Shown: positions 28,817-53,675 of the stretch, piece by piece | Layout of the letters: each line of letters starts with the position of its first letter | How positions within the stretch are numbered: the first letter of the stretch is position 1 | Assembly: GCA_018268465.1 (NCBI GenBank) | Contig: JAFDWN010000023.1 | Span: forward strand, 22,029 to 86,028 | DNA length: 64,000 nt | Source: Actinomycetota bacterium | Lineage (GTDB): Bacteria; Actinomycetota; Actinomycetes; Mycobacteriales; Mycobacteriaceae | Direction: 5' to 3' | Made by a program: the position numbers and the translations under genes | Notes under the pieces: generated by a model | Told to the model about the DNA's origin: nothing | The model's input: the letters and a program-made list of their open reading frames with translations, nothing else | Database searches by the model: none

Positions 28817-28915
28817 GTGACCGCCGCCCAGACCACCGCCCCCGGTGCCCGCCTGGTGGTTCGGCGTCATGTCGACTTCAAGCGTGTATGCACCTGTTGT
28901 TGTCGTTGTCCGTGA
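28817..28915 (+). CDS. Leaderless polycysteine small ORF, cysteine attenuator of sirA-cysH operon
   Basis: This 32-aa peptide starts at GTG and ends VCTCCCRCP, with five Cys in the last eight residues. The start coincides with the predicted transcription start, so the mRNA is leaderless. In mycobacteria such polycysteine leader ORFs are reported as cysteine-responsive attenuators: scarcity of Cys-tRNA stalls the ribosome at the Cys run and exposes the downstream ribosome-binding site. Downstream, at 29005-29020, the sirA Shine-Dalgarno is locked in a GCTCCT-ATCA-AGGAGC hairpin, which fits this mechanism. Confidence 0.85.
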   Translation: MTAAQTTAPGARLVVRRHVDFKRVCTCCCRCP

Positions 28916-37105: not shown

Positions 37106-37201
37106 TCAGCGACAACAACAAGCGACATCGGCAACGGCGGATGTACCCACGGCGATGAGGGCCAAGATGTGGCCCTCCACAGCGCCGGACGCCAATTGCA
37201 T
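37106..37201 (-). CDS. Leaderless polycysteine small ORF, cysteine attenuator of subI-cysTWA
   Basis: This 31-aa peptide starts at ATG 37201 and ends VADVACCCR, with three consecutive TGT codons just before the last codon and stop. A TAAGCT -10 lies exactly 7 nt upstream, making the ORF leaderless. The arrangement is the same as before sirA and before the thioester-domain gene at 47365. It is expected to sense Cys-tRNA supply by translation and to open the subI ribosome-binding site on stalling. Confidence 0.85.
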   Translation of the reverse strand: MQLASGAVEGHILALIAVGTSAVADVACCCR

Positions 37202-38805: not shown

Positions 38806-40005
38806 TCAGAAATACCCGTTGGCCGGTGCAGTGGTGCCGTTGACCAGGTGGTTGCCCACCGCGTGCGCCTTGTAGTCGAGCGGGTTGTGGCTGGCGACGG
38901 TTCGCGCATTGCGCCAGTGCCGGTCGAGGTTGAGAATTCGCGCGGTCGCCGAGGCGCCCCCGGTATCGAAGAGTCGCTGCGCCGCCTGCAGCGTCAGGCG
39001 CTCGGCGACCAGCTGTGCCCCGGCCACCACCGCGGCCGCCTCGCCCAGTGCGTCGTCGTCCGACTGGGCGCCGGAGTCCACCAGCGCGTCCAGCACGTCG
39101 GCGGCCGAGAGCACCAGCGTCTCGGCGGCCGCGGCGGAAGCACCGATCTCGCCGACGGCGTGCAGCACGAAAGGGTCGTCGGCGGCCCTGCTCGCGACCG
39201 AATGAGCGGCGGGCCGGGCACGGTTGCGCACGTAGTCGACCGCATCCGCGCGCACCGCAGCGGCGATACCCGCAGCAACCGCGGCCAGGTAGAGCTGCAG
39301 AAACGTCGTGCTGTGTCCGAGGTGAGCGCCGTCGGACACCGTGGTCACCTCGACCGGCGTGACCTCGACATCGGTGAACCGCGTCGCCCCGCTGGCGGTG
39401 GTGCGCTGCCCGAATCCGTCCCAGTCGTCGAACCGTTCGACACCGGTGCGGCCCGTGGGCACGATCACCTGCACGTCGTTGCCGTCGATATCGACGGCAG
39501 ACACCGCGATCGCGTCGGCGTACAGGGTGCCCGTCGAGTAGAACTTGTGGCCGTTGAGCCGCAGTACGCCGTCTCGGTCGGGCAACACGGTGGTGTCCGA
39601 ACTGCCCGGAGCCCGTCCCCTGGCGTCGGTGATGGCGTTGCCGACCAGCAGACCGGCGTTGATCCGCGGAAACCACTCGGCCCGCTCGACCTCAGTGGCC
39701 CGGTTGCTCAACAGCCGCTCGGAGAAGCCGAAGTGCGCCCGAAGTGCCTGTGCCACATTGGAGCTGCCCGACGCTATCCGGATCACCGCCGTGAGCACGT
39801 CGCGAATGCTGCCGCCAGGACCGCCGTAACGTTGCGGAACCCGAAGGGTGAGGATGCCCGCGTCGCGCAGTTCATCGACAGCCGCGTACTGCAGAACCCG
39901 CTCCCGCTCGGCTGAGGGGTCCTGCACGCGCAACGACTCGACGATCGGCGTGAGGCGGTTCAGGCGTTGGGCGACATCACCGTCGAGCGTGGTGGCCAAT
40001 GTCAT
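38806..40005 (-). CDS. DszC/SfnB-like acyl-CoA dehydrogenase-fold flavin monooxygenase
   Basis: This 399-aa acyl-CoA dehydrogenase-fold protein has LRVPQRYGGPGGS, GHKFYSTGTLYADAIAVSAV, FDDWDGFGQRTTASGAT and a C-terminal LDRHWRNARTVASHNPLDYK. That last motif is typical of DszC/SfnB-type FMN monooxygenases rather than true dehydrogenases. Such enzymes often attack organosulfur compounds. It is last in a four-gene coupled operon with an LLM monooxygenase (15-nt gap), a GS-like ligase and an APC permease. The placement next to the sulfur genes suggests sulfur scavenging. Confidence 0.9.
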   Translation of the reverse strand: MTLATTLDGDVAQRLNRLTPIVESLRVQDPSAERERVLQYAAVDELRDAGILTLRVPQRYGGPGGSIRDVLTAVIRIASGSSNVAQALRAHFGFSERLLSNRATEVERAEWFPRINAGLLVGNAITDARGRAPGSSDTTVLPDRDGVLRLNGHKFYSTGTLYADAIAVSAVDIDGNDVQVIVPTGRTGVERFDDWDGFGQRTTASGATRFTDVEVTPVEVTTVSDGAHLGHSTTFLQLYLAAVAAGIAAAVRADAVDYVRNRARPAAHSVASRAADDPFVLHAVGEIGASAAAAETLVLSAADVLDALVDSGAQSDDDALGEAAAVVAGAQLVAERLTLQAAQRLFDTGGASATARILNLDRHWRNARTVASHNPLDYKAHAVGNHLVNGTTAPANGYF

Positions 40006-40020
40006 CGCTTCTCCTCGGGG

Positions 40021-41040
40021 TCAACGGAACTTCGGGATGATCGTGTCGGCGAACCGCTCCAGTTCGGCCTCCAGCGGCTGGAACTGCAGCATGAACAGCT
40101 CGATACCGGCGTCGTGGAAAGCCGAGACCCTCTCGGCGACCGTGTCATAACTGCCGACCAGCCCAGCCAGTGTGCCGCCGTTGGAGCCGACTCGGCTGGT
40201 GCCTGCCAGCACCTGGTACATCTGGGTCTTCGGGTCGGTGCCGCCGGAGATCTCCGGCCTGCGCTCGGCGTCCACCAGCGCCTGCAGATGCGCCGCCTCG
40301 GCCTCGGCTTCCTCGTCGGTGTCACGGGCGATCACGAACGCCGACAAGCCGAATCGCAGCGGGCCGCCGGATTGCGCCGAGCCGCGACGCGCCGTCAGGT
40401 CGGCGATCACGGCCCGGGTGTCGGCCAGCGGCCGGCCGTTGATGAAGAACACGTCGGCCGTCTCAGCGGCCAGTTGCCGGCCGGGTTCGGACTCGCCTCC
40501 GACGTAGACCGACGGAACATATTGCGGTACAGGGCGTACCAGCGCGGGCTGACCGGCCCCGACGGCGACCTGTTTACCCGCCCACAGAGCGGTCACGGTG
40601 TCCACCCACGAGCGGGTGTACGCGTAGCGGTCGTCGTGGTCGAGGACGTCGACACCGAGGGCCTCCAATTCCGGTAGGAACCAGCCGGTGACGACGTTGA
40701 TGGACAGTCTTCCCCTGGAGATGTCGGCGATATTGCCCGCAAGTTTGGCGAATACGAGCGGGTTGACGAGCAGCGGTTTGATCGCTCCTATCAGCTCGAT
40801 CCGCTCGGTGGCCTCGGCCAGCGCCGCGAGCGTGGACCAGGTTTCCAGGACACCGTCCTCGACGTCGCTGGGATGGATGACGTGCTGGGCCACCAGCGTC
40901 GCATCGAAGCCGACGTTCTCGGCACGCACGATCAGATCCCGGTTGCGCCGATAACTTGCGTCGGGCGCGTCGTCGGGATGGTGTCGGGCGCCGTGGTTGC
41001 CGTACACGGGCGCCCAGACCCCGAACCGCGGCACGCTCAT
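40021..41040 (-). CDS. FMN-dependent luciferase-like monooxygenase (SfnG/alkanesulfonate monooxygenase-like)
   Basis: This 339-aa LLM barrel has FGVWAPVYGNHGARHHPDD at the N-terminus, LIVRAENVGFDATLVAQHV, SRGRLSINVVTGWFLPEL (the family's NVVTGW signature for FMN sulfonate/sulfone enzymes), VYVGGESEPGRQLAAE and AELERFADTIIP. The start ATG 41040 overlaps the stop of the GS-like gene (ATGA). It probably needs reduced FMN from a separate reductase. The NVVTGW motif points to SsuD/SfnG-like desulfonation or sulfone oxidation. Confidence 0.92.
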   Translation of the reverse strand: MSVPRFGVWAPVYGNHGARHHPDDAPDASYRRNRDLIVRAENVGFDATLVAQHVIHPSDVEDGVLETWSTLAALAEATERIELIGAIKPLLVNPLVFAKLAGNIADISRGRLSINVVTGWFLPELEALGVDVLDHDDRYAYTRSWVDTVTALWAGKQVAVGAGQPALVRPVPQYVPSVYVGGESEPGRQLAAETADVFFINGRPLADTRAVIADLTARRGSAQSGGPLRFGLSAFVIARDTDEEAEAEAAHLQALVDAERRPEISGGTDPKTQMYQVLAGTSRVGSNGGTLAGLVGSYDTVAERVSAFHDAGIELFMLQFQPLEAELERFADTIIPKFR

Positions 41041-42368
41041 GACGTGCTCAGGTAGCGGCGCCGCTCCCAGTCGCTGACGTGACTCACGTACTGCTGCCAT
41101 TCACTGCGTGCGATCGCGGCGAAGTCGTGCACCGAGTCCGCACCGAGGATGTCCAGGATGGTGTCGTCCTGGGTGGCCAGCGCGATGGCGGTGCCCAGCG
41201 AGTCGGGCAGTGGGGTGCCCTTGCCGTACAGGTTTCCAGTGGCCGCGTCGGGCGGTTCACGGCGCGCCTCCAACCCCGCGATGACCGCGGCCAGCGCCGA
41301 GGCGATGAGCCAGTAGGGGTTGGAATCCGAAGCGCCGGAACGTAGCTCGATGCGGGAAGCGCGCGGCTCCGCCTCGACCAGGGAGCGGATCGCTGCGCTG
41401 CGGTTGTCGCGGCTCCAGTTGACGGTGTCGGGTGCGAAGGTGTCCGGCGCGAACCGGCGGTAGGCGTTGACCGAGTGGGCACCGAACAGCGTGATCGACG
41501 GCAGATGTTCGAACAGCCCGGCGATGGCGTACCGCGCGGTGCGGCTCTCCGCGCCGTCGACGGCGGCGAAGGCGGGTTCGTCGCCGCGCCACAACGAAAT
41601 ATGCAGGTGTGCCGAACTTCCCGAATGCTCGGAGAACGGCTTGGGCATGAAGCTGGCCAGCCGCCCATGCCTGCGCGCCACCTCCTTGGCGGCGTACTTC
41701 AGGCGGGCACTGTCGTCGGCAGCAGCCAGCGCGTCGGTGTAGACCAGGTTGGTCTCGACCTGTCCCGGACCGTACTCGGTCTGGATTCCTTCCAGCCGGG
41801 TGAAGGCGCCCAGAGTGTCGTACAGGTCGGCGATCAGCGGGTCGAGCGCATTGGCGTTCTCCAGCGAATAGGCCTGGATCGCGTCGATGATCGGCGATCC
41901 GTCGCTCTGCAGCAGATAGAACTCGAATTCGACCCCGATCTTGGCGGTGTAGCCCAGTCCGTCCAGCCGGGTCAGTGCCCGGCGCAGCACCGCACGCGGA
42001 TCCAGCAATGACGGGGTGCGGTGATGGGTGACGATGTCGGAGATCACGTGGCCCACGCCCGGCCGCCAGGGCAGCCGGGTGAACGTCGAGAAGTCCGGAA
42101 CCGCATACACATCCGGGTAGCCGCCATCCCAGTTCGTCAGGCGCAGCTCATCGATCACCGTGCCGTCGGTGTTCCAGCCGAGTGCGGCCTCGCAGAACGC
42201 AAATCCGGTGCCGGTGGCCCGGTCGAGGAACTGAGCGGCCGGGATGCGTTTACCCGCAGCGTGCCCGAACGGGTCGCTCCAGGCCACCTCGATCTCGGTG
42301 AGCGTGCCGTCGGCGATGCCGCCGCGCAGCTCGTCGGGAGCAGACGACACGGCGGAGACCTGCGTCAT
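41037..42368 (-). CDS. Glutamine synthetase-family ligase (gamma-glutamyl-amine synthetase-like)
   Basis: This 443-aa GS-fold protein has EIEVAWSDPFGHAAGKRIPA, IGVEFEFYLLQ (metal Glu), QTEYGPGQVETNL, GSSAHLHISLW (GS signature His), VNAYRRFAPDTFAPDTVNWS and the C-terminal RIELRSGASDSNPYWLIASAL. It resembles the PuuA/IpuC type, which ligates glutamate to an amine, rather than housekeeping GlnA. The start ATG 42368 overlaps the permease stop (ATGA). It may cage an imported amine as a gamma-glutamyl amide before oxidation by the two downstream flavoproteins. Confidence 0.9.
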   Translation of the reverse strand: MTQVSAVSSAPDELRGGIADGTLTEIEVAWSDPFGHAAGKRIPAAQFLDRATGTGFAFCEAALGWNTDGTVIDELRLTNWDGGYPDVYAVPDFSTFTRLPWRPGVGHVISDIVTHHRTPSLLDPRAVLRRALTRLDGLGYTAKIGVEFEFYLLQSDGSPIIDAIQAYSLENANALDPLIADLYDTLGAFTRLEGIQTEYGPGQVETNLVYTDALAAADDSARLKYAAKEVARRHGRLASFMPKPFSEHSGSSAHLHISLWRGDEPAFAAVDGAESRTARYAIAGLFEHLPSITLFGAHSVNAYRRFAPDTFAPDTVNWSRDNRSAAIRSLVEAEPRASRIELRSGASDSNPYWLIASALAAVIAGLEARREPPDAATGNLYGKGTPLPDSLGTAIALATQDDTILDILGADSVHDFAAIARSEWQQYVSHVSDWERRRYLSTS

Positions 42369-45996: not shown

Positions 45997-46064
45997 CCGG
46001 CGAGCGTGCGTGTCTGCGGCCGACACGCCGACATCAGGGCCGAGGATGCGCACGCTCGCGCCGG
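45997..46064. terminator. Nested hairpin between convergent trehalase and thioester-domain genes
   Basis: CCGGCGAGCGTGCG (45997-46010) pairs with the region ending 46064 (a 2-nt bulge), and inside the loop CGTGTC/GACACG (46009-46014 and 46022-46027) forms a second stem. It is preceded by a 15-bp direct repeat, TAATCCCCCGGCGAG, at 45974 and 45989. It is a probable bidirectional terminator, and its right arm also encodes the C-terminal residues of the leftward gene. Confidence 0.55.
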
Positions 46065-47365
46065 ATTGAACCGGCGGTCCGTCGCAGCGATCCCACGCTG
46101 ACGTCGAAATCGACCACCAGCTTGGCCGGGACCGCCAGCGCCAGCGGTGTGTACCGCTGCGAACTCTCGTCGCGGGCGACACCGGTGAGCACCCGGCCGC
46201 CGTGGCCGTCGGGGGTGCCCGGCACCGTCACCGTGAGGGTCGCCCGACCTTCGCCGCTGCCGATCCGCAGGTAGAACGGCTGCCCCGGAGCGATCGGACC
46301 TGCCAGCTCGGCACCGTCGGCGTCGACGATCGACGCCCGCGAACCTGCGGCCACCGTGAGCGCCGCGGATTCGGTGGCGTGCAGCCGCAGCGGTCCGACC
46401 AGCTCACCGCGGACGTCGGCGTCCGAGCTGTCCAGTGCGGGGGCCACGACCCGGGCGCGGGCCCGCCGGGCCCCGTCGAGCAGGTAGTTGTACAGGTGCA
46501 CCACCCGTTCGGAGTTGCGGTAGGCGCCCGAACCCTGCAGCCAGAACCGCACGTCGGCCACGGTCGCGGTGCCGCCGTGCGGGGTGGCGACCGTCAGACG
46601 GTAGAACGGGTAGCCGCCAGCCCCGCGGGCGTGCCGACTTGTCGACACCGTGGTGCCGACCCCGAACGACTTGCGGTGACTGCCTTCACCGACGGCCAGC
46701 CGCGACCCGGCGATCTCCCGCCAGGTGTGTCCGTCGATGGATTTCTGCCACGTCAGGATCACCTCGGCGTCGGTCACGAGGTCAACGGTGCAGCCGCCCA
46801 ATTCGCGGGGGCCGTCGAATTCGAAGACCATGCCGTCGGCGGTGTCGGAGACGCGGGTGGGAGCGGCCAGCGACCGGTTGTCCAACTCCAGTCCGTTGGT
46901 CAGGTGCCAGATGGCGGCCTGGGTGCCGGCGATGGCTTCGTGCTCGGCGATGTTCGCGGTGCCTAGCGGGTAACCGGCCGCTCGCAACCGGCGGCTCAGC
47001 TCGGCCGGGCGCAGCGTCGGGTAGGAGTTGCGCAGGATCCAGTCCACCTCGGCCTCATGCGCGTGGGCGCGCAGGTTGGGCAGCGCGCGCCAGGTCTCGA
47101 CCCGGTACCGCGACGGTTGCGCCGGCGCCACCCCGGTGAAGTCCAGCGAGTACGCCTCGATACCCGGATTGAGCCTGATCAGATCGGTGCGCGCACGGGA
47201 GCCGTCCACGAAGGTGACGGTGTCGACGGTGTGCGAGTAGGTGCCGCCGCGGTAGCGGGTCATACGGGTGATGTCGGCGGCGGGCCTGGGTTGTACCCTG
47301 CGCCGGACGGAGACGGCGGCGCGGCGAGGCAGCGGCTGGACGACGGGGAAGGCGACAACAGACAT
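46034..47365 (-). CDS. Thioester-domain (TQxA-type) surface protein lacking the thioester cysteine
   Basis: This 443-aa protein has a thioester-domain-like N-terminal half: RYRGGTYSHTVDTVTF, EVDWILRNSYP and EHEAIAGTQAAIWHLTNG, the last holding the diagnostic TQxAxW (Gln149). At the partner position, where thioester domains have Cys, the sequence is AYSLDF (Ser73). The rest is beta-rich (about 230-440). No clear signal peptide is visible from ATG 47365, only a moderately hydrophobic N-terminus. The Shine-Dalgarno AGAAAG is 9 nt before the ATG, which decides against ATG 47371. It is preceded by a polycysteine leader ORF, so it is probably cysteine-regulated. Confidence 0.82.
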   Translation of the reverse strand: MSVVAFPVVQPLPRRAAVSVRRRVQPRPAADITRMTRYRGGTYSHTVDTVTFVDGSRARTDLIRLNPGIEAYSLDFTGVAPAQPSRYRVETWRALPNLRAHAHEAEVDWILRNSYPTLRPAELSRRLRAAGYPLGTANIAEHEAIAGTQAAIWHLTNGLELDNRSLAAPTRVSDTADGMVFEFDGPRELGGCTVDLVTDAEVILTWQKSIDGHTWREIAGSRLAVGEGSHRKSFGVGTTVSTSRHARGAGGYPFYRLTVATPHGGTATVADVRFWLQGSGAYRNSERVVHLYNYLLDGARRARARVVAPALDSSDADVRGELVGPLRLHATESAALTVAAGSRASIVDADGAELAGPIAPGQPFYLRIGSGEGRATLTVTVPGTPDGHGGRVLTGVARDESSQRYTPLALAVPAKLVVDFDVSVGSLRRTAGSIRRERAHPRP

Positions 47366-47374
47366 GAACATTGA

Positions 47375-47455
47375 CTTTCTGGGGCTTGCGAGCAGCGCGA
47401 ACAGCACACCGCCGAACAAGGGCGGGCTGGAACGCAGGAACTACGGCGTCAGAAA
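47375..47455 (-). promoter_or_regulatory. Possible Shine-Dalgarno sequestration for the thioester-domain gene
   Basis: On the minus strand TTTCTG (47455-47450), starting 1 nt after the polycysteine ORF stop, is complementary to CAGAAA (47381-47376), which contains most of the AGAAAG Shine-Dalgarno. A ribosome stalled on the Cys codons would cover the first arm and free the second. The pairing is only 6 bp, so it is suggestive. Confidence 0.4.
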
Positions 47456-47456
47456 A

Positions 47457-47525
47457 TCAACAACAACAGGAATGCACGACAATGCTGCGCGTGGTGACAC
47501 TGCGCGGCGCGGCGGTCTGCTGCAT
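47457..47525 (-). CDS. Leaderless polycysteine small ORF before the thioester-domain gene
   Basis: This 22-aa peptide starts at ATG 47525 and ends VVHSCCC, three TGT codons directly followed by TGA. A TATGGT -10 sits exactly 7 nt before the ATG, so the mRNA is leaderless. The design matches the attenuators of sirA and subI. The downstream gene is a thioester-domain-like protein, not a known sulfur-assimilation gene. The peptide sequence otherwise differs from the two other leaders, which argues for convergent or function-driven conservation of the Cys run. Confidence 0.78.
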   Translation of the reverse strand: MQQTAAPRSVTTRSIVVHSCCC

Positions 47526-47531
47526 GCGCAC

Positions 47532-47538
47532 TACCATA
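47532..47538. promoter_or_regulatory. Overlapping divergent -10 elements (TACCATA / TATGGTA)
   Basis: The 7-mer TACCATA contains a TANNNT -10 on each strand: TACCAT (47532-47537, rightward, toward the encapsulin gene) and TATGGT (47538-47533, leftward, leader ORF at 47525). The leftward one is well supported by the 7-nt spacing to a start codon. The rightward one is weaker because the leader to the encapsulin ATG would be about 110 nt. Confidence 0.5.
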
Positions 47539-47654
47539 CGGCATGGCAGCGCAGGAACACACCCGCGGCTTTCCATCAGACCCGCATCTAAATCTCTGCG
47601 ACGGGCGTGGTCGTCATCCATGATGGGTCCACCACACCTGCTCGGGAGGAATCA

Positions 47655-48578
47655 ATGACGTCGGCACAGAACGAATCCCAGGCGCTCGGCGACCTCGCCG
47701 CACGGCAGCTCGCCAATGCGACGAAGACCGTTCCGCAGCTGTCCACCATCACTCCCCGCTACCTGCTGCACCTGCTGGGCTGGGTACCGGTCGAGGCCGG
47801 TATCTACCGGGTCAACCGTGTCGTCAACCCCGACCAGGTGGCGATCCACGCCGAGGAGGGTGCGGCGTCGGAGGAACCGCTGCCGGAGACCTATGTCGAC
47901 TACGAGACCAGCCCGCGCGAGTACACCCTGCGTTCGATCTCCACCCTGCTCGATGTCCACACCCGGGTCTCGGACCTCTACTCGAGTCCGCACGATCAGA
48001 TCGCCCAGCAGCTGCGCCTGACCATCGAGACCATCAAGGAGCGCCAGGAGTCCGAGCTCGTCAACAATCCCGAGTATGGGCTGCTGTCCCAGGTCACCCC
48101 CGAACAGACCATCCAGACACTGGGCGGCGCACCGACACCCGACGACCTCGACGCGCTGATCACCAAGGTGTGGAAGACACCCGGGTTCTTCCTCACCCAT
48201 CCGCTCGGCGTCGCCGCGTTCGGCCGTGAGTGCACCTACCGTGGTGTGCCGCCGGCCGTGGTGAATCTCTTCGGCGCCCAGTTCATCACCTGGCGCGGGA
48301 TCCCGATCATCCCCAGCGACAAGGTCCCGGTGGAGGACGGCGCGACGAAGTTCATCCTGGTGCGCACCGGTGAGGAACGCCAGGGTGTCGTCGGCCTGTT
48401 CCAGCCGGGACTGGTCGGCGAGCAGGCCCCGGGCCTGTCGGTGCGCTTCACCGGCATCAACCGGTCGGCCATCGCGTCCTACCTGGTCACGCTGTACACC
48501 TCGCTGGCCGTGCTCACCGACGACGCCCTGGCAGTGCTCGAGGACGCGGCGGTGGACCAGATCCATGAGTACAAGTGA
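47655..48578 (+). CDS. Family 2A encapsulin shell protein (SrpI-like)
   Basis: This 307-aa shell protein with the HK97-like encapsulin fold is related to the sulfur-regulated SrpI of cyanobacteria and the major membrane protein I antigen of pathogenic mycobacteria. Supporting sequences are a short N-terminal arm, YVDYETSPREYTLRSISTLL (E-loop region), TIETIKERQESELVNNPEYG, GVPPAVVNLFGAQFITWRG and the C-terminal VRFTGINRSAIASYLVTLY. GGGAGGA precedes the ATG. The next gene, overlapping by 14 nt, encodes the cysteine desulfurase cargo of this encapsulin class, so the pair should make a sulfur-handling protein nanocompartment. Confidence 0.94.
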   Translation: MTSAQNESQALGDLAARQLANATKTVPQLSTITPRYLLHLLGWVPVEAGIYRVNRVVNPDQVAIHAEEGAASEEPLPETYVDYETSPREYTLRSISTLLDVHTRVSDLYSSPHDQIAQQLRLTIETIKERQESELVNNPEYGLLSQVTPEQTIQTLGGAPTPDDLDALITKVWKTPGFFLTHPLGVAAFGRECTYRGVPPAVVNLFGAQFITWRGIPIIPSDKVPVEDGATKFILVRTGEERQGVVGLFQPGLVGEQAPGLSVRFTGINRSAIASYLVTLYTSLAVLTDDALAVLEDAAVDQIHEYK

Positions 48579-50511
48579 CATCCGGGGCGAGCGAAGCGAC
48601 GGGAAAGAGTATCGGTCGCTAGACGCCGAGAGCGACCTGCCCATCGGTGCGGCCGAGCTGGCCGCTCTGGCAACTCAGTTGTTCGCCGCCAGCATCCGCC
48701 CCGGCCCTGACACGCCGCCGCAGACCGCGCCGGTCGCACCGCGGGGGTCAGTGCCCGACGTGACGGCGGTCACCTCCGGCGCCACAACGGCAGCGGGCAC
48801 CTCCGACCCGTACACCCCGGCCGTGCAATCGTTCGTCGTGCCGCAGGGTCGGTCGGCCGGATTCCCCGCTCCGACGTCCCCCGGTCCGGAACCTGTCCCG
48901 CCACAAGCCGTTCCCGTCGCCCCTCGGGGCACAGTTCCCGACGCCTCTGCCGTGACGTCGGCGGGCACGGCGGCGGGCGGGGCCGCCGACCCGTATCTAC
49001 CGCCGGGAGTCGCGGACCTGTCCGCTTACGCCGTGCCGTCGGGAATTGTCCCGACGGTGCCCGGTGTGCTCGCCGGTGCGCCACCTGCGGCCCCGGTGGC
49101 GCCGCGGGGGTCGGGTCCCGCCGCGCCGACATCGCCGTGGGGTGCCACGCCGACCTGGCCGCCGGCGGCACCGTCGGTGGTCGATCTCGGACTCGGTGCG
49201 GCGCCGAACGCGCCCGCCACGCCTGCCGGGGACGAGGCGGACTACTACTTCCTGCGCGAACCCGTCCCCCAGATTCCCGACGATCACGAGATCTTCGACG
49301 TCAACGCGGTCCGCGCGGACTTCCCGATCCTGCGCGAGACGGTCAACGGGAAGCCGCTGATCTGGTTCGACAACGCGGCCACCACGCAGAAACCCCAGGC
49401 CGTCATCGACCGGTTGGCCTACTTCTACGCCCACGAGAACTCCAACATCCACCGCGCCGCACACGAGCTGGCCGCCCGGGCCACCGACGCCTACGAGGAG
49501 GCGCGCGAAACCGTGCGCCGGTTCATCGGCGCCGCCAAGGCCGAAGAGGTCATCTTCGTGCGGGGCACTACCGAAGCCATCAATCTGGCGGCCTACGCAT
49601 GGGGCGGCAAACACCTGGGCCCCGGCGACGAGATCGTCATCACCCATCTCGAACACCACGCCAATATCGTTCCATGGCAACTGCTTTCGCAGCAGACGGG
49701 CGCGGTGCTCAAGGTGGCCCCGGTCGACGACGCAGGCAACCTGCTGCTCGGCGAGTTCGAAGACCTCCTGGGTCCGCGCACCAAACTCGTTGCGGCGACG
49801 CACGTCTCCAACGCGCTGGGCACGGTCACCCCGGTGCAGAAGATCGTCGAACTCGGCCACCGCTACGGCGCGCGGGTGCTCATCGACGGAGCGCAGTCGA
49901 TCCCGCACATTCCCATCGACGTCAGCACGCTGGGGGCGGACTTCTTCGTGTTCTCCGGTCACAAGATCTTCGGCCCGACCGGGATCGGCGTACTCTACGG
50001 CACCGAGGAGATCCTGGCCGAGACGCCACCGTGGCAGGGTGGGGGCAATATGATCGCCGACGTCACCCTGGAACGCTCGCTCTACCAGGGCCCGCCGAAC
50101 AAGTTCGAAGCCGGCACCGGCAACATAGCCGACGCGGTGGGCCTAGGCGAGGCGTTGCGCTATGTGGAGAAGGTCGGCATCGAGCGTATTTCGGCCTACG
50201 AGCACACGCTGCTCGAGTACGCCACCCCCCGGCTGGCCGACATTCCCGGTGTTCGGCTGGTGGGTACGGCCGACGAGAAAGCCAGCGTGCTGTCGTTCGT
50301 GCTCGCGGGCCACGAACCGCTGGACGTCGGCAAGGCGCTCAACGCCGAGGGTATCGCGGTGCGGGCCGGACACCATTGCGCGCAGCCGATCCTGCGCAGG
50401 CTCGGGTTGGAGGCCACGGTGCGTCCGTCGTTTGCGTTCTACAACACGTTCGACGAGATCGACGTCTTCATCCGCGCGGTCCGCCGGATCGCCGAAGGTT
50501 CCCCGTCGTAG
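48565..50511 (+). CDS. Cysteine desulfurase with N-terminal encapsulation domain (encapsulin cargo)
   Basis: This 648-aa PLP enzyme releases sulfur from cysteine. Residues about 1-220 are disordered, Pro/Ala/Val/Gly-rich, and contain three repeats of a PVAPRGSVPD-like motif, as expected for the cargo-targeting domain of family 2A encapsulin cargo. The catalytic part (about 235-645) is SufS-type (group II): the PLP lysine is in FSGHKIFGP (about Lys467) and the sulfur-carrying Cys is in RAGHHCAQP (about Cys605). The ATG at 48565 overlaps the encapsulin stop by 14 nt. A bidirectional hairpin follows the stop. Confidence 0.94.
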   Translation: MSTSDIRGERSDGKEYRSLDAESDLPIGAAELAALATQLFAASIRPGPDTPPQTAPVAPRGSVPDVTAVTSGATTAAGTSDPYTPAVQSFVVPQGRSAGFPAPTSPGPEPVPPQAVPVAPRGTVPDASAVTSAGTAAGGAADPYLPPGVADLSAYAVPSGIVPTVPGVLAGAPPAAPVAPRGSGPAAPTSPWGATPTWPPAAPSVVDLGLGAAPNAPATPAGDEADYYFLREPVPQIPDDHEIFDVNAVRADFPILRETVNGKPLIWFDNAATTQKPQAVIDRLAYFYAHENSNIHRAAHELAARATDAYEEARETVRRFIGAAKAEEVIFVRGTTEAINLAAYAWGGKHLGPGDEIVITHLEHHANIVPWQLLSQQTGAVLKVAPVDDAGNLLLGEFEDLLGPRTKLVAATHVSNALGTVTPVQKIVELGHRYGARVLIDGAQSIPHIPIDVSTLGADFFVFSGHKIFGPTGIGVLYGTEEILAETPPWQGGGNMIADVTLERSLYQGPPNKFEAGTGNIADAVGLGEALRYVEKVGIERISAYEHTLLEYATPRLADIPGVRLVGTADEKASVLSFVLAGHEPLDVGKALNAEGIAVRAGHHCAQPILRRLGLEATVRPSFAFYNTFDEIDVFIRAVRRIAEGSPS

Positions 50512-50532
50512 CTCGAGGTCCTCGCTCGACCG

Positions 50533-50580
50533 GACGCACGAATGCCCCGACACGCAGTGCGTGCGGGGCATTCGTGCGTC
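50533..50580. terminator. Long perfect hairpin between convergent genes (bidirectional terminator)
   Basis: There is a 17-bp perfect stem (arms 50533-50549 and 50564-50580) whose 14-nt loop itself pairs CACGC/GCGTG. It lies 21 bp after the desulfurase stop and 11 bp before the convergent permease stop. No T-tract follows, as is usual in mycobacteria. Confidence 0.75.
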
Positions 50581-50591
50581 GGCTCGTTCGG

Positions 50592-51254
50592 TCAGGTGAT
50601 GAGCGGGCGTCCCAGTGGCAGCGATTTCCCACCGGTCTCCGGCCACAGGGATGCGACGTAGAAGTAGATGACGAACCCGACGAACCCGAAAACGAACCAG
50701 CCGCCGGCCTGCGTGGCCACTGCACTGCCGCTCTGGTTGCCGATCAGGAGCAGTAGCAGAGCGATGTCGACGATCAGCAGCAGTACCGGGTAGGTCCATG
50801 GCAGCCGCAATACCAACACCGTCAGGATGCCGATGGTCAGCAGCCAGCTGCCCAGCCACAGAGCGGTCGTCTGCTGTACGGCCGAATCGGGAATCCCGAA
50901 CCAGTCGTGAGTCAGCCCGAGGGACAACGCGGCGAAGCTGCCGTAGAACCCGAAGAACGTCCCGTAGATCGTCGCGTTGACGTTCTGCGCCAGGGCAGCC
51001 GACCAGATGGTCGTGATGAGCAGTCCGATCGCGGTGGCCGACAACAGAATCGGCACGGCGGCGGCGCCAGCGGTGACGATGCCGGTGTTGGTGAAACCCA
51101 GACCGGCCGCCCCGGCGATGATGAGGGGAAGCCCGATCAATCCCGGGTTGCCCTCGGGCTGCGCGGTCGTCGGCGGCTCCGGCACGGACGGCAGCGCCGA
51201 CTCGCCCACCGCCGGGACGGCGGGGCGGGTGTTGGTGACGACGATGTCTGTCAT
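50592..51254 (-). CDS. GPR1/FUN34/YaaH-family acetate/succinate-type transporter
   Basis: This 220-aa protein has six membrane segments after a Pro-rich 40-residue N-terminus. The family entry motif appears as GNPGLIGLP (canonical NPAPLGL-like), followed by NTGIVTAG and later LWLGSWLLTIG. These transporters carry acetate, succinate or ammonium-linked solutes. GGAGAG precedes the ATG. It is last of a five-gene leftward run with MetE-like, SfnB-like, LysR and dioxygenase genes, so it may export or import the small acid left after sulfur removal. Confidence 0.88.
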   Translation of the reverse strand: MTDIVVTNTRPAVPAVGESALPSVPEPPTTAQPEGNPGLIGLPLIIAGAAGLGFTNTGIVTAGAAAVPILLSATAIGLLITTIWSAALAQNVNATIYGTFFGFYGSFAALSLGLTHDWFGIPDSAVQQTTALWLGSWLLTIGILTVLVLRLPWTYPVLLLIVDIALLLLLIGNQSGSAVATQAGGWFVFGFVGFVIYFYVASLWPETGGKSLPLGRPLIT

Positions 51255-52359: not shown

Positions 52360-53595
52360 CTAGAGCAGTAGGCCGATCCGCGGCGGCAGGGTGCCCTTGA
52401 GGGTGTAGTTGCCCAGGTGGACGTACTTCCATCGCGCCGGATCGTGCAGTGAGTGCACACGCACGTTGCGCCAGTGCCGGTCGAGTGCGTGGCTCCCGTC
52501 GGTCGCCGAGGAGCCCGCGAGTTCGAAGACACCGCTGGCGATCTCGACGGCGAACTCCTGAGCGAGCGCCTTGGCCGCCGCGACCTTCAGAGATGCCTCC
52601 GCCGCCGCCTCACGAGTCAGCTCGGGTTCGGCCAATGCCGCATCGACCAGTCGTGAACCCTGCTGGAGCAGCGCCTCCAGGGCGTAGAGCCGAGCCGTGA
52701 GCTCGCCGAACCGCCGGACCACGTGGGGTTCGTCGGCCGCGCTGTCCACGCCGGCCTCGAACCACGGCCGGCTCCTGGTCGCGACGAACCGGGCGCCGTC
52801 GGCAAGTGCGGCCCGGGCGATGCCGACGTCGATCGCGGCGTGCAATGCCTGGTCGAACGCGCCGAGCACCGACGGCGGCGATGTGACAGGGTCGGGGTCG
52901 GGACCTTCGTCGATCACCAGAGCGCCGTCGACGACGACATCGTCGAGAATGACCTCACCGCTGGCGGTGCCACGCTGGCCGAACGACGACCACTTCTCGA
53001 GGTCGAGTGTGACGCCGGGGTCAGAGGGGCGAATAAACGCCGTCGCGCCGTGCGACGGCTCGGTCTGAGGGATGCGAGCGGAGACGGCGATCCAGCTGGC
53101 TCCGAGGGAACCCGTGGCGTAGTACTTCGTGCCGTTGAGCACCCAACTGCCATCGTGGCGCCGAGCGACCGTCGTGCGCCGTTCGACGCTGAGGCGGGTA
53201 CCCCTCTCGACCGTGGCGTTGCCGAGCTGCGCGCCGGCGAGCACGTCGCGGTAGATCGTCGGTGCCGGTTCGGTGTGACCGAGCCCGCGGATCGCCGCGT
53301 TGATCACGTAGTGCGCCAGCAGCAGCTGCCCCACCGCCGAATCCGCCTGCGCGAGAATGCGTAGCACCTCCACCGCGGTGGATTGGGGCAGATCTGGGCC
53401 GCCGAACCCGGCTGGCACGATGATGCCGAGCAGTCCGGTCCGGGCGACCAGGCGCAACTGCTCCTCGGGGAGCGTTGCGGTGAGTTCGCGCTCGACCGCT
53501 CCGACCGCCACCCCGTCGGCAACCGCATGCGCGGCGGCCAGCGCTTGGTCGACGGACTCCAGCACCGGAGTGGTGGTGGTGTCGCTGATCGTCAT
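52360..53595 (-). CDS. SfnB-like acyl-CoA dehydrogenase-fold flavin monooxygenase
   Basis: This 411-aa protein of the SfnB/DszC group has GIIVPAGFGGPDLP, GTKYYATGSLGASWIAVSAR, EKWSSFGQRGTASGEVILD and a C-terminal LDRHWRNVRVHSLHDPARWK. The HWRN..H..HDP..K block is shared with the protein at 38806, so the two are paralogues. SfnB proteins serve organosulfur acquisition under sulfate limitation. The start at ATG 53595 follows AAAGGA, 10 nt away. It lies between the MetE-like and LysR genes. Confidence 0.92.
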   Translation of the reverse strand: MTISDTTTTPVLESVDQALAAAHAVADGVAVGAVERELTATLPEEQLRLVARTGLLGIIVPAGFGGPDLPQSTAVEVLRILAQADSAVGQLLLAHYVINAAIRGLGHTEPAPTIYRDVLAGAQLGNATVERGTRLSVERRTTVARRHDGSWVLNGTKYYATGSLGASWIAVSARIPQTEPSHGATAFIRPSDPGVTLDLEKWSSFGQRGTASGEVILDDVVVDGALVIDEGPDPDPVTSPPSVLGAFDQALHAAIDVGIARAALADGARFVATRSRPWFEAGVDSAADEPHVVRRFGELTARLYALEALLQQGSRLVDAALAEPELTREAAAEASLKVAAAKALAQEFAVEIASGVFELAGSSATDGSHALDRHWRNVRVHSLHDPARWKYVHLGNYTLKGTLPPRIGLLL

Positions 53596-53675
53596 GTGCA
53601 AGTGGTCCTTTCGTCAGACCGCAGCTGCTGTTGCCGCGGAAGGGTAATCGGGATCGGCGGCGCGGAGAAGGGGGC

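Follow-up and report, generated by a model that had tools for sequence, protein, structure and literature searches.

A conserved polycysteine leader, very probably a cysteine-responsive translation attenuator, precedes a thioester-domain-like gene divergent from a mycobacterial family 2A encapsulin

In the stretch of mycobacterial DNA analysed here (64 kb in full, hereafter the window), a gene for a protein related to thioester-domain (TED) proteins is preceded by a short upstream open reading frame (uORF) that ends in a run of cysteine codons. The most plausible account of this arrangement, and one in which we have high confidence, is that the leader belongs to the known leaderless polycysteine attenuators, which act on translation in response to cysteine, and that the TED protein is probably a partner, cytoplasmic and cysteine-poor, of the neighbouring encapsulin and its desulfurase that is made at cysteine shortage. 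The parts of the locus, with their coordinates in the window, are these:

47533..47538, minus strand: -10 element TATGGT, read from the letters, 7 nt (47532-47526) ahead of the uORF ATG
47457..47525, minus strand: predicted leaderless 22-codon uORF MQQTAAPRSVTTRSIVVHSCCC plus stop (ATG 47525-47523, TGA 47459-47457)
47460..47468, minus strand: putative sensor, three TGT Cys codons abutting the stop (from the sequence, an excess of synonymous changes and a preference for TGT)
47450..47459, minus strand: anti-Shine-Dalgarno (anti-SD) arm UGAUUUUCUG, which takes in the stop codon of the uORF (from pairing, folding and shuffle tests)
47372..47381, minus strand: Shine-Dalgarno (SD) arm CAGAAAGUCA, within which lies the TED gene's Shine-Dalgarno, AGAAAG (from pairing, folding and modelled accessibility)
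46034..47365, minus strand: controlled gene, encoding a 443-aa TED/TQXA-domain protein with Ser replacing the thioester Cys (PF08341, TIGR03934)
47655..48578, plus strand: divergent gene for the family 2A encapsulin shell protein SrpI (PF19307, E 1.3e-97; NF041162, 496.7 bits against a cut-off of 380)
48565..50511, plus strand: encapsulin cargo cysteine desulfurase (NF041166, 849 bits against a cut-off of 800)

The original prediction for this locus named a TATGGT element, a gap of 7 nt, an ATG at 47525, a 22-aa ORF and a CCC-stop ending, and every one of these letters and distances is present; judged by sequence only, the spacing of 7 nt between the -10 element and the ATG is that of a leaderless start. 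TTTTCTGA abuts the uORF stop codon (TGA, 47459-47457) and CAGAAAG lies at 47381-47375. The pairing that had been proposed between the post-stop segment and the downstream SD is likewise there and is longer than was claimed, with complementarity between UGAUUUUCUG (47459-47450) and CAGAAAGUCA (47381-47372) running to 10 bp when the stop codon is included, and this helix forms part of the minimum-energy fold. The start of the TED gene is most likely ATG 47365, because orthologues begin there and the SD then stands 9 nt off. A search of Rfam returned no known RNA family at gathering score within 46000-50600.

Under the mechanism that we propose, the A of ATG 47525 would be the first base transcribed, and a ribosome would therefore begin the uORF leaderless. 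While charged tRNA-Cys is ample, the ribosome would pass the Cys codons and leave, after which UGAUUUUCUG would pair with CAGAAAGUCA and hide the TED Shine-Dalgarno (off). Under cysteine shortage it would instead stall in the Cys codons ahead of the stop, its footprint would cover the anti-SD arm, and the SD would be left free for the TED protein to be made (on). Given the size of a ribosome footprint, a stall in the Cys codons would sit on or reach the anti-SD arm.

Conservation was assessed in two sets of relatives that overlap, in that some loci of the second come from the same genomes as the first. A genus search of 118 Mycobacterium genomes gave SrpI matches in 40 (39 of them above the family cut-off, the other, in G105, being a short piece only) and TED matches in 43. 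Among named genomes, scanning yielded 174 confirmed relatives, the best 80 of which were analysed. All 40 SrpI-bearing genomes carry both a TED match and the leader, and the leader is present in 80/80 of these best 80 of 174 named loci, so that the Cys run and the -10 element, whose loss from close relatives would have told against the original prediction, are kept. Divergent SrpI accompanies the leader in 79 of the same 80 loci (best 80 of 174); for the remaining locus, L082, no SrpI was found on its 4.1-kb contig. Among the 78 genus genomes without SrpI, three have pieces of TED (three pieces in G089, and fragments on small contigs in G044 and G070), and the stretches read at these pieces showed no leader. 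The first 30 genus loci fetched have the leader (30/30) and divergent SrpI (30/30), although in L027 the latter is in two pieces. Because the layout is kept in every SrpI-bearing mycobacterial relative checked, cysteine shortage is probably the main condition under which the TED protein is produced.

Loci L009-L148 (n=140) reduce to 95 distinct leaders. In all 95, the spacing between TAnnnT and the start codon is 6 nt (49 leaders) or 7 nt (46), the start codon is ATG in 93 and GTG in 2, and the last 12 codons hold between 3 and 9 Cys, with a longest unbroken run of at least 3 in 91 leaders and of 2 in the other 4. In L123 and L125 (genomes G075 and G115, 3.27 Mb each), the TED and SrpI frames are open and the leader ORF is kept, with one of the two showing a partly worn Cys run, CYCRCC. 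In G105 (locus L236), the leader persists though TED (in two pieces) and the short SrpI both look broken.

The pairing potential of the two arms was evaluated across the distinct leaders. Native anti-SD/SD duplexes have a mean energy of -10.4 kcal/mol, compared with -8.9 kcal/mol when partners are swapped between species, and none of 2000 permutations was as good. Leaving aside 11 of the 95 leaders that could not be anchored for pair counts, 82 of 84 retain the variable pair (T-A 40, C-G 38, T-G 4, C-A 2), and the next three helix pairs are present in 75, 73 and 67 of the 84. Masking 14 nt from the stop codon raised modelled SD accessibility from 0.23 to 0.38 in a set of 91 leaders that are not independent of one another (p 1.8e-11; the 4 others of the 95, having no matched SD, were dropped), whereas the control, masking in the middle of the gap, had no effect (0.24, p 0.57). 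Accessibility changed by >0.2 on masking upwards in 35/91 leaders and downwards in 2/91. In the window leader itself, modelled SD accessibility is 0.002 when the leader is free and 0.43 with the post-stop segment masked, and only 3 of 300 shuffles matched its 10-bp post-stop arm.

Pairing of the segment at the uORF end with the SD, clear in the window leader, is mixed across relatives when leaders are taken singly. Only 38/95 post-stop arms beat 95% of shuffles, the post-stop arm is the best SD partner within the gap in only 44/95 leaders, and the fold of the window leader has only a modest advantage over shuffles (z -1.34 and -1.74). RNAalifold predicted no pair on the whole MAFFT alignment of the 95 leaders, and a whole-leader consensus structure was dropped on that account. 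The tree places about three T/C changes in one arm and about five A/G changes in the other; an independent-pairs test was not significant (3 pairs, p 0.5), and tree-corrected covariation was dropped as support, there being too few events.

Polycysteine ORFs ahead of two other genes in the window, one sirA-like and the other subI, were confirmed at 28817-28915 and 37106-37201, the former starting with GTG. The TED leader had been described as sharing their design, a likeness that in the case of sirA is only partial. It extends to the polycysteine ORF of the sirA leader and to the subI leader, where the post-stop segment pairs with the SD over 5 bp (35/300 shuffles as good), but stops short of the post-stop pairing of the sirA leader, which is poor (249/300 shuffles as good).

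We favour translation attenuation by masking of the SD, with Rho-linked termination as the main rival. According to the latter, the uORF would govern transcription, its translation altering premature termination, whether Rho-dependent or intrinsic, upstream of the TED gene. Such a role would fit with the failure of RNAalifold to find conserved pairing and with the weakness of anti-SD pairing in many single leaders, and we also counted in its favour a paper title ending in 'tuberculosis' in the available part of the reference list of PMC13236596. We nevertheless judge it unlikely: no intrinsic terminator was found in the leader region, the paired arms touch the SD itself, and masking of the post-stop segment frees the SD in models.

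Codon use in the uORF bears on what the ribosome would be reading there. Among close pairs of leaders, which are not independent, synonymous changes make up 35% of the single-base codon differences in the last 7 codons, where 22% would be expected, while in the rest of the uORF the corresponding figures are 26% and 29%. As the synonymous excess is confined to the C-terminal codons, the Cys end appears to be under selection and the remaining peptide to be free, so that the uORF ends in a run of Cys codons kept by selection. The uORFs prefer TGT to TGC (399:115), which is the opposite of the preference in 12 genes of the window (10:52).

These observations also weigh on the notion that the peptide itself matters, through sequence-specific arrest or through binding of metal or thiol by the Cys run, and that the signal is something other than cysteine supply. 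Cys runs can bind metal, and the N-terminal wording of the peptide (MQQAVQ.RFVPSRC..) is alike in many species. The lack of any synonymous excess outside the Cys end argues the other way, as do the leaders of two other genera described below, which share little beyond the terminal Cys, and the placing of the window's two other polycysteine leaders ahead of sulfur genes; taken together, these points make a peptide-based signal quite improbable and leave attenuation by cysteine supply as the preferred reading.

The product of the controlled gene matches the Pfam TED family (PF08341, E 1.4e-9) and the NCBIfam TQXA family (TIGR03934, E 3.8e-15), both above cut-off, and aligns with canonical TEDs in a profile-profile comparison (probability 99.7). 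The position of the thioester Cys is, however, occupied by Ser73, and Ser stands there in 52/52 aligned proteins and in 140/140 loci read, whereas Cys is present in 18/18 thioester-domain proteins that were fetched from the order's other families (the weak match L185, from a third genus of the same family, lies outside this set). The thioester Gln, invariant in 15 canonical proteins, fares no better, for the aligned position is R in 36/52 and Q in 2/52 of the TED proteins here, with Q in the preceding column in 11/52. Judged on these alignments, the protein is a degenerate thioester-domain relative that has lost both thioester residues. It also carries an insert of about 115 residues (window 46517-46879) that is absent from canonical TEDs; this insert has no Pfam or PDB match of weight, and a guess that it is a discoidin-like domain was discarded for the same reason.

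Nor does the protein look secreted. No signal peptide is apparent in the TED copies when hydropathy is the only guide: the best 14-residue N-terminal hydropathy averages 0.82 and reaches 1.87 at its highest, compared with 1.81-2.77 in canonical TEDs, so that the ranges just overlap. LPxTG occurs in 1/95 TED copies, close to the N-terminal end of the frame, and the same pattern finds it in only 4/18 canonical TED proteins. TED proteins average 1.0 Cys and 42/88 have none (counted in 88 copies, after 7 of the 95 had been set aside for falling short of 390 residues), compared with 3.1 Cys per 425 residues in 25 proteins of the window.

The TED protein is thus probably cytoplasmic, and not on the surface, to go by these sequence features. 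The original prediction had called it a cell-surface-type protein, and a genuine surface thioester adhesin that merely adjoins the encapsulin would account for the family matches and the high profile-profile score, and for the most hydrophobic N-termini, which just reach the lowest canonical value. We rejected that description on the thioester residues, replaced or not conserved throughout, and on the apparent absence of a secretion signal, with the low mean hydropathy and the near-absence of LPxTG on the same side; a mere neighbour would also hardly be expected to accompany SrpI in 40/40 genomes, and we regard a surface role as very improbable.

Because CCC-stop strings occur at chance level across the genome, the case for the leader rests on its conservation. 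The string has 27 matches genome-wide, against 26 for a reversed control pattern, and an in-frame leaderless promoter was present at only 1/27 of the strings checked (25 from the genome and 2 from the window), for which reason the exact string is no marker of a regulon and a genome-wide CCC-stop set was rejected as one. A detector for the complete arrangement (TAnnnT, 5-8 nt, ATG or GTG, 12-40 codons and a Cys-rich end) fired in 22/5000 dinucleotide shuffles of the leader's own 289-nt intergenic region, and with CCC in 2/5000. In the 64-kb window it matched in two places, the TED leader and the subI leader, and it undercounts, since the sirA leader was missed. Elsewhere in 845 kb of relatives' loci, on both strands, it gave 28 matches, 7 of them with CCC, and 4 of these 7 are subI-like leaders. 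Three further CCC leaderless ORFs were noted near 8.9 kb in L079, L098 and L106, about 4 kb from the start of the TED gene. That the uORF is a meaningless product of chance or a relic, as the chance-level frequency of CCC-stop strings might suggest, is refuted for practical purposes by its presence in every SrpI-bearing genome of the genus and every named locus analysed (best 80 of 174), and by the scarcity of comparable matches elsewhere in the relatives' loci.

The genes divergent from the TED gene comprise an SrpI-like shell and a cysteine desulfurase cargo, and so constitute a family 2A system, the desulfurase having been assessed in the window alone. The original prediction had placed the leader before a gene not known in sulfur assimilation, which understates the setting: the gene is divergent from a type 2A encapsulin gene, occurs in all SrpI-bearing genomes of the genus set and, in the window, has a desulfurase following the encapsulin. 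Its sulfur context consists of this adjoining encapsulated cysteine desulfurase and, in one case, of cysK and cysE as neighbours. An SfnB-like gene (38806-41100) and an SfnG/SsuD-like gene (52360-53601), so named from their nearest NCBIfam models with scores below cut-off, lie nearby, and the TED and encapsulin genes therefore seem to sit within a sulfur-acquisition region. The further proposal that cysteine attenuation extends to a promoter shared with the encapsulin operon did not hold, since the genes are divergent and the attenuator is present only in the TED message, and therefore cannot act on the divergent operon in the window genome by this mechanism.

Beyond the genus, we surveyed a family sample of 301 genomes from 31 genera. 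PF19307, which also matches family 2B shells, was found in 36/301 genomes and 11/31 genera. Strong TED matches were restricted in this sample to Mycobacterium (10 genomes, the same 10 that have SrpI there) and to two more genera; a further genus gave a single weak match. The copies in the two other genera have Ser in the motif, lie next to SrpI and come with a leaderless ORF that closes with Cys-Cys (MRSAAPDHIGVLRCRFHCC and MQRKQAEDLQPMSCVRMRRCC). Their SD arms differ, and 17/300 and 28/300 shuffled arms pair as well, so each pairing is weak when taken alone. In one of these genera (G159, loci L184 and L186), the order is the end of cysK, cysE, leader, TED and srpI, all on one strand, and the polycysteine leader may therefore affect the shell gene there too. 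At 7 SrpI loci without TED (7 of 24 such genomes in the family sample), no polycysteine leader was found within about 1.5 kb. From the co-occurrence with SrpI, the leaders of the other genera and the TED-less loci without a leader, we conclude that the leader goes with TED and TED with the encapsulin.

On this genetic linkage, the TED protein seems to be a partner of the sulfur encapsulin in the cytoplasm. A more specific reading, which we put forward tentatively and consider possible but on balance doubtful, is that it is a dedicated thioester-less encapsulin accessory, nearly free of cysteine, which stalled ribosomes would induce at cysteine shortage and which would either mobilise sulfur from the shell and desulfurase or stop the desulfurase from destroying scarce cysteine. 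If that were so, the ribosome would act as the cysteine gauge of a nanocompartment. For the regulation of family 2A encapsulins and the timing of their sulfur use, a conserved, predicted cysteine gauge on a protein that accompanies SrpI in every genus genome with the shell points to cysteine limitation as the condition and to TED as the gene, and makes a testable prediction.

The kind of leader seen here is already known; what is new is its TED target and the tie to an encapsulin. Leaderless polycysteine short-ORF attenuators of M. smegmatis were reportedly described by Canestrari and co-workers in 2020. Such attenuators are covered in the available parts of PMC9031893, PMC9094748 and PMC13236596, and the TED leader resembles them, as far as those parts go, in its leaderless start and C-terminal run of Cys codons and, by prediction, in a ribosome speed set by cysteine and in regulated translation of the next gene; it differs in that its target is an encapsulin neighbour with a TED fold and not an enzyme of cysteine biosynthesis. 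Shell and co-workers (2015; PMC4633059) also reported Cys-rich leaderless uORFs, which precede cysA2, the Rv0485 orthologue and nirA. Like the TED leader, these are, in the section available, conserved and leaderless with clustered Cys codons ahead of annotated genes, but the TED locus is not one of the three uORFs shown in that main-text section.

The original prediction took the TED leader to be undescribed, which holds in part. For M. abscessus, a uORF with ribosome protection that precedes MAB_0219, a TQXA-domain gene, was already reported in 2016 (PMC4974804, from the available text), in a paper whose main text contains neither the word cysteine nor the word encapsulin. In three single-contig genomes of 4.6-5.1 Mb, TED orthologues with a Cys-run uORF lie at 0.21-0.25 Mb, and this gene position makes it most likely that the MAB_0219 uORF is the orthologous leader. 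Our literature search, to which the locus list of the 2020 M. smegmatis study is external, found no publication linking the TED leader to cysteine or to an encapsulin.

Published work connects family 2A encapsulins with sulfur metabolism, reports that they go up when S. elongatus is starved of sulfur, and names serine O-acetyltransferases and rhodaneses as their accessory genes (available parts of PMC8049743 and PMC8346489). The genes divergent from TED in the window are, on that description, the same system, a family 2A encapsulin with a desulfurase cargo; the word thioester is absent from the main texts of both papers. Canonical TEDs form a Cys-Gln thioester with the Cys in a [YFL]C motif (PMC4450167, available text). 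By the standard of that text, the window protein resembles TED proteins in its match to the PF08341 profile and in a TQxxIW motif, and differs from them in having neither thioester residue and no apparent secretion signal and in carrying its insert of about 115 residues: a thioester-domain relative that has here lost its chemistry and, seemingly, moved into the cytoplasm.
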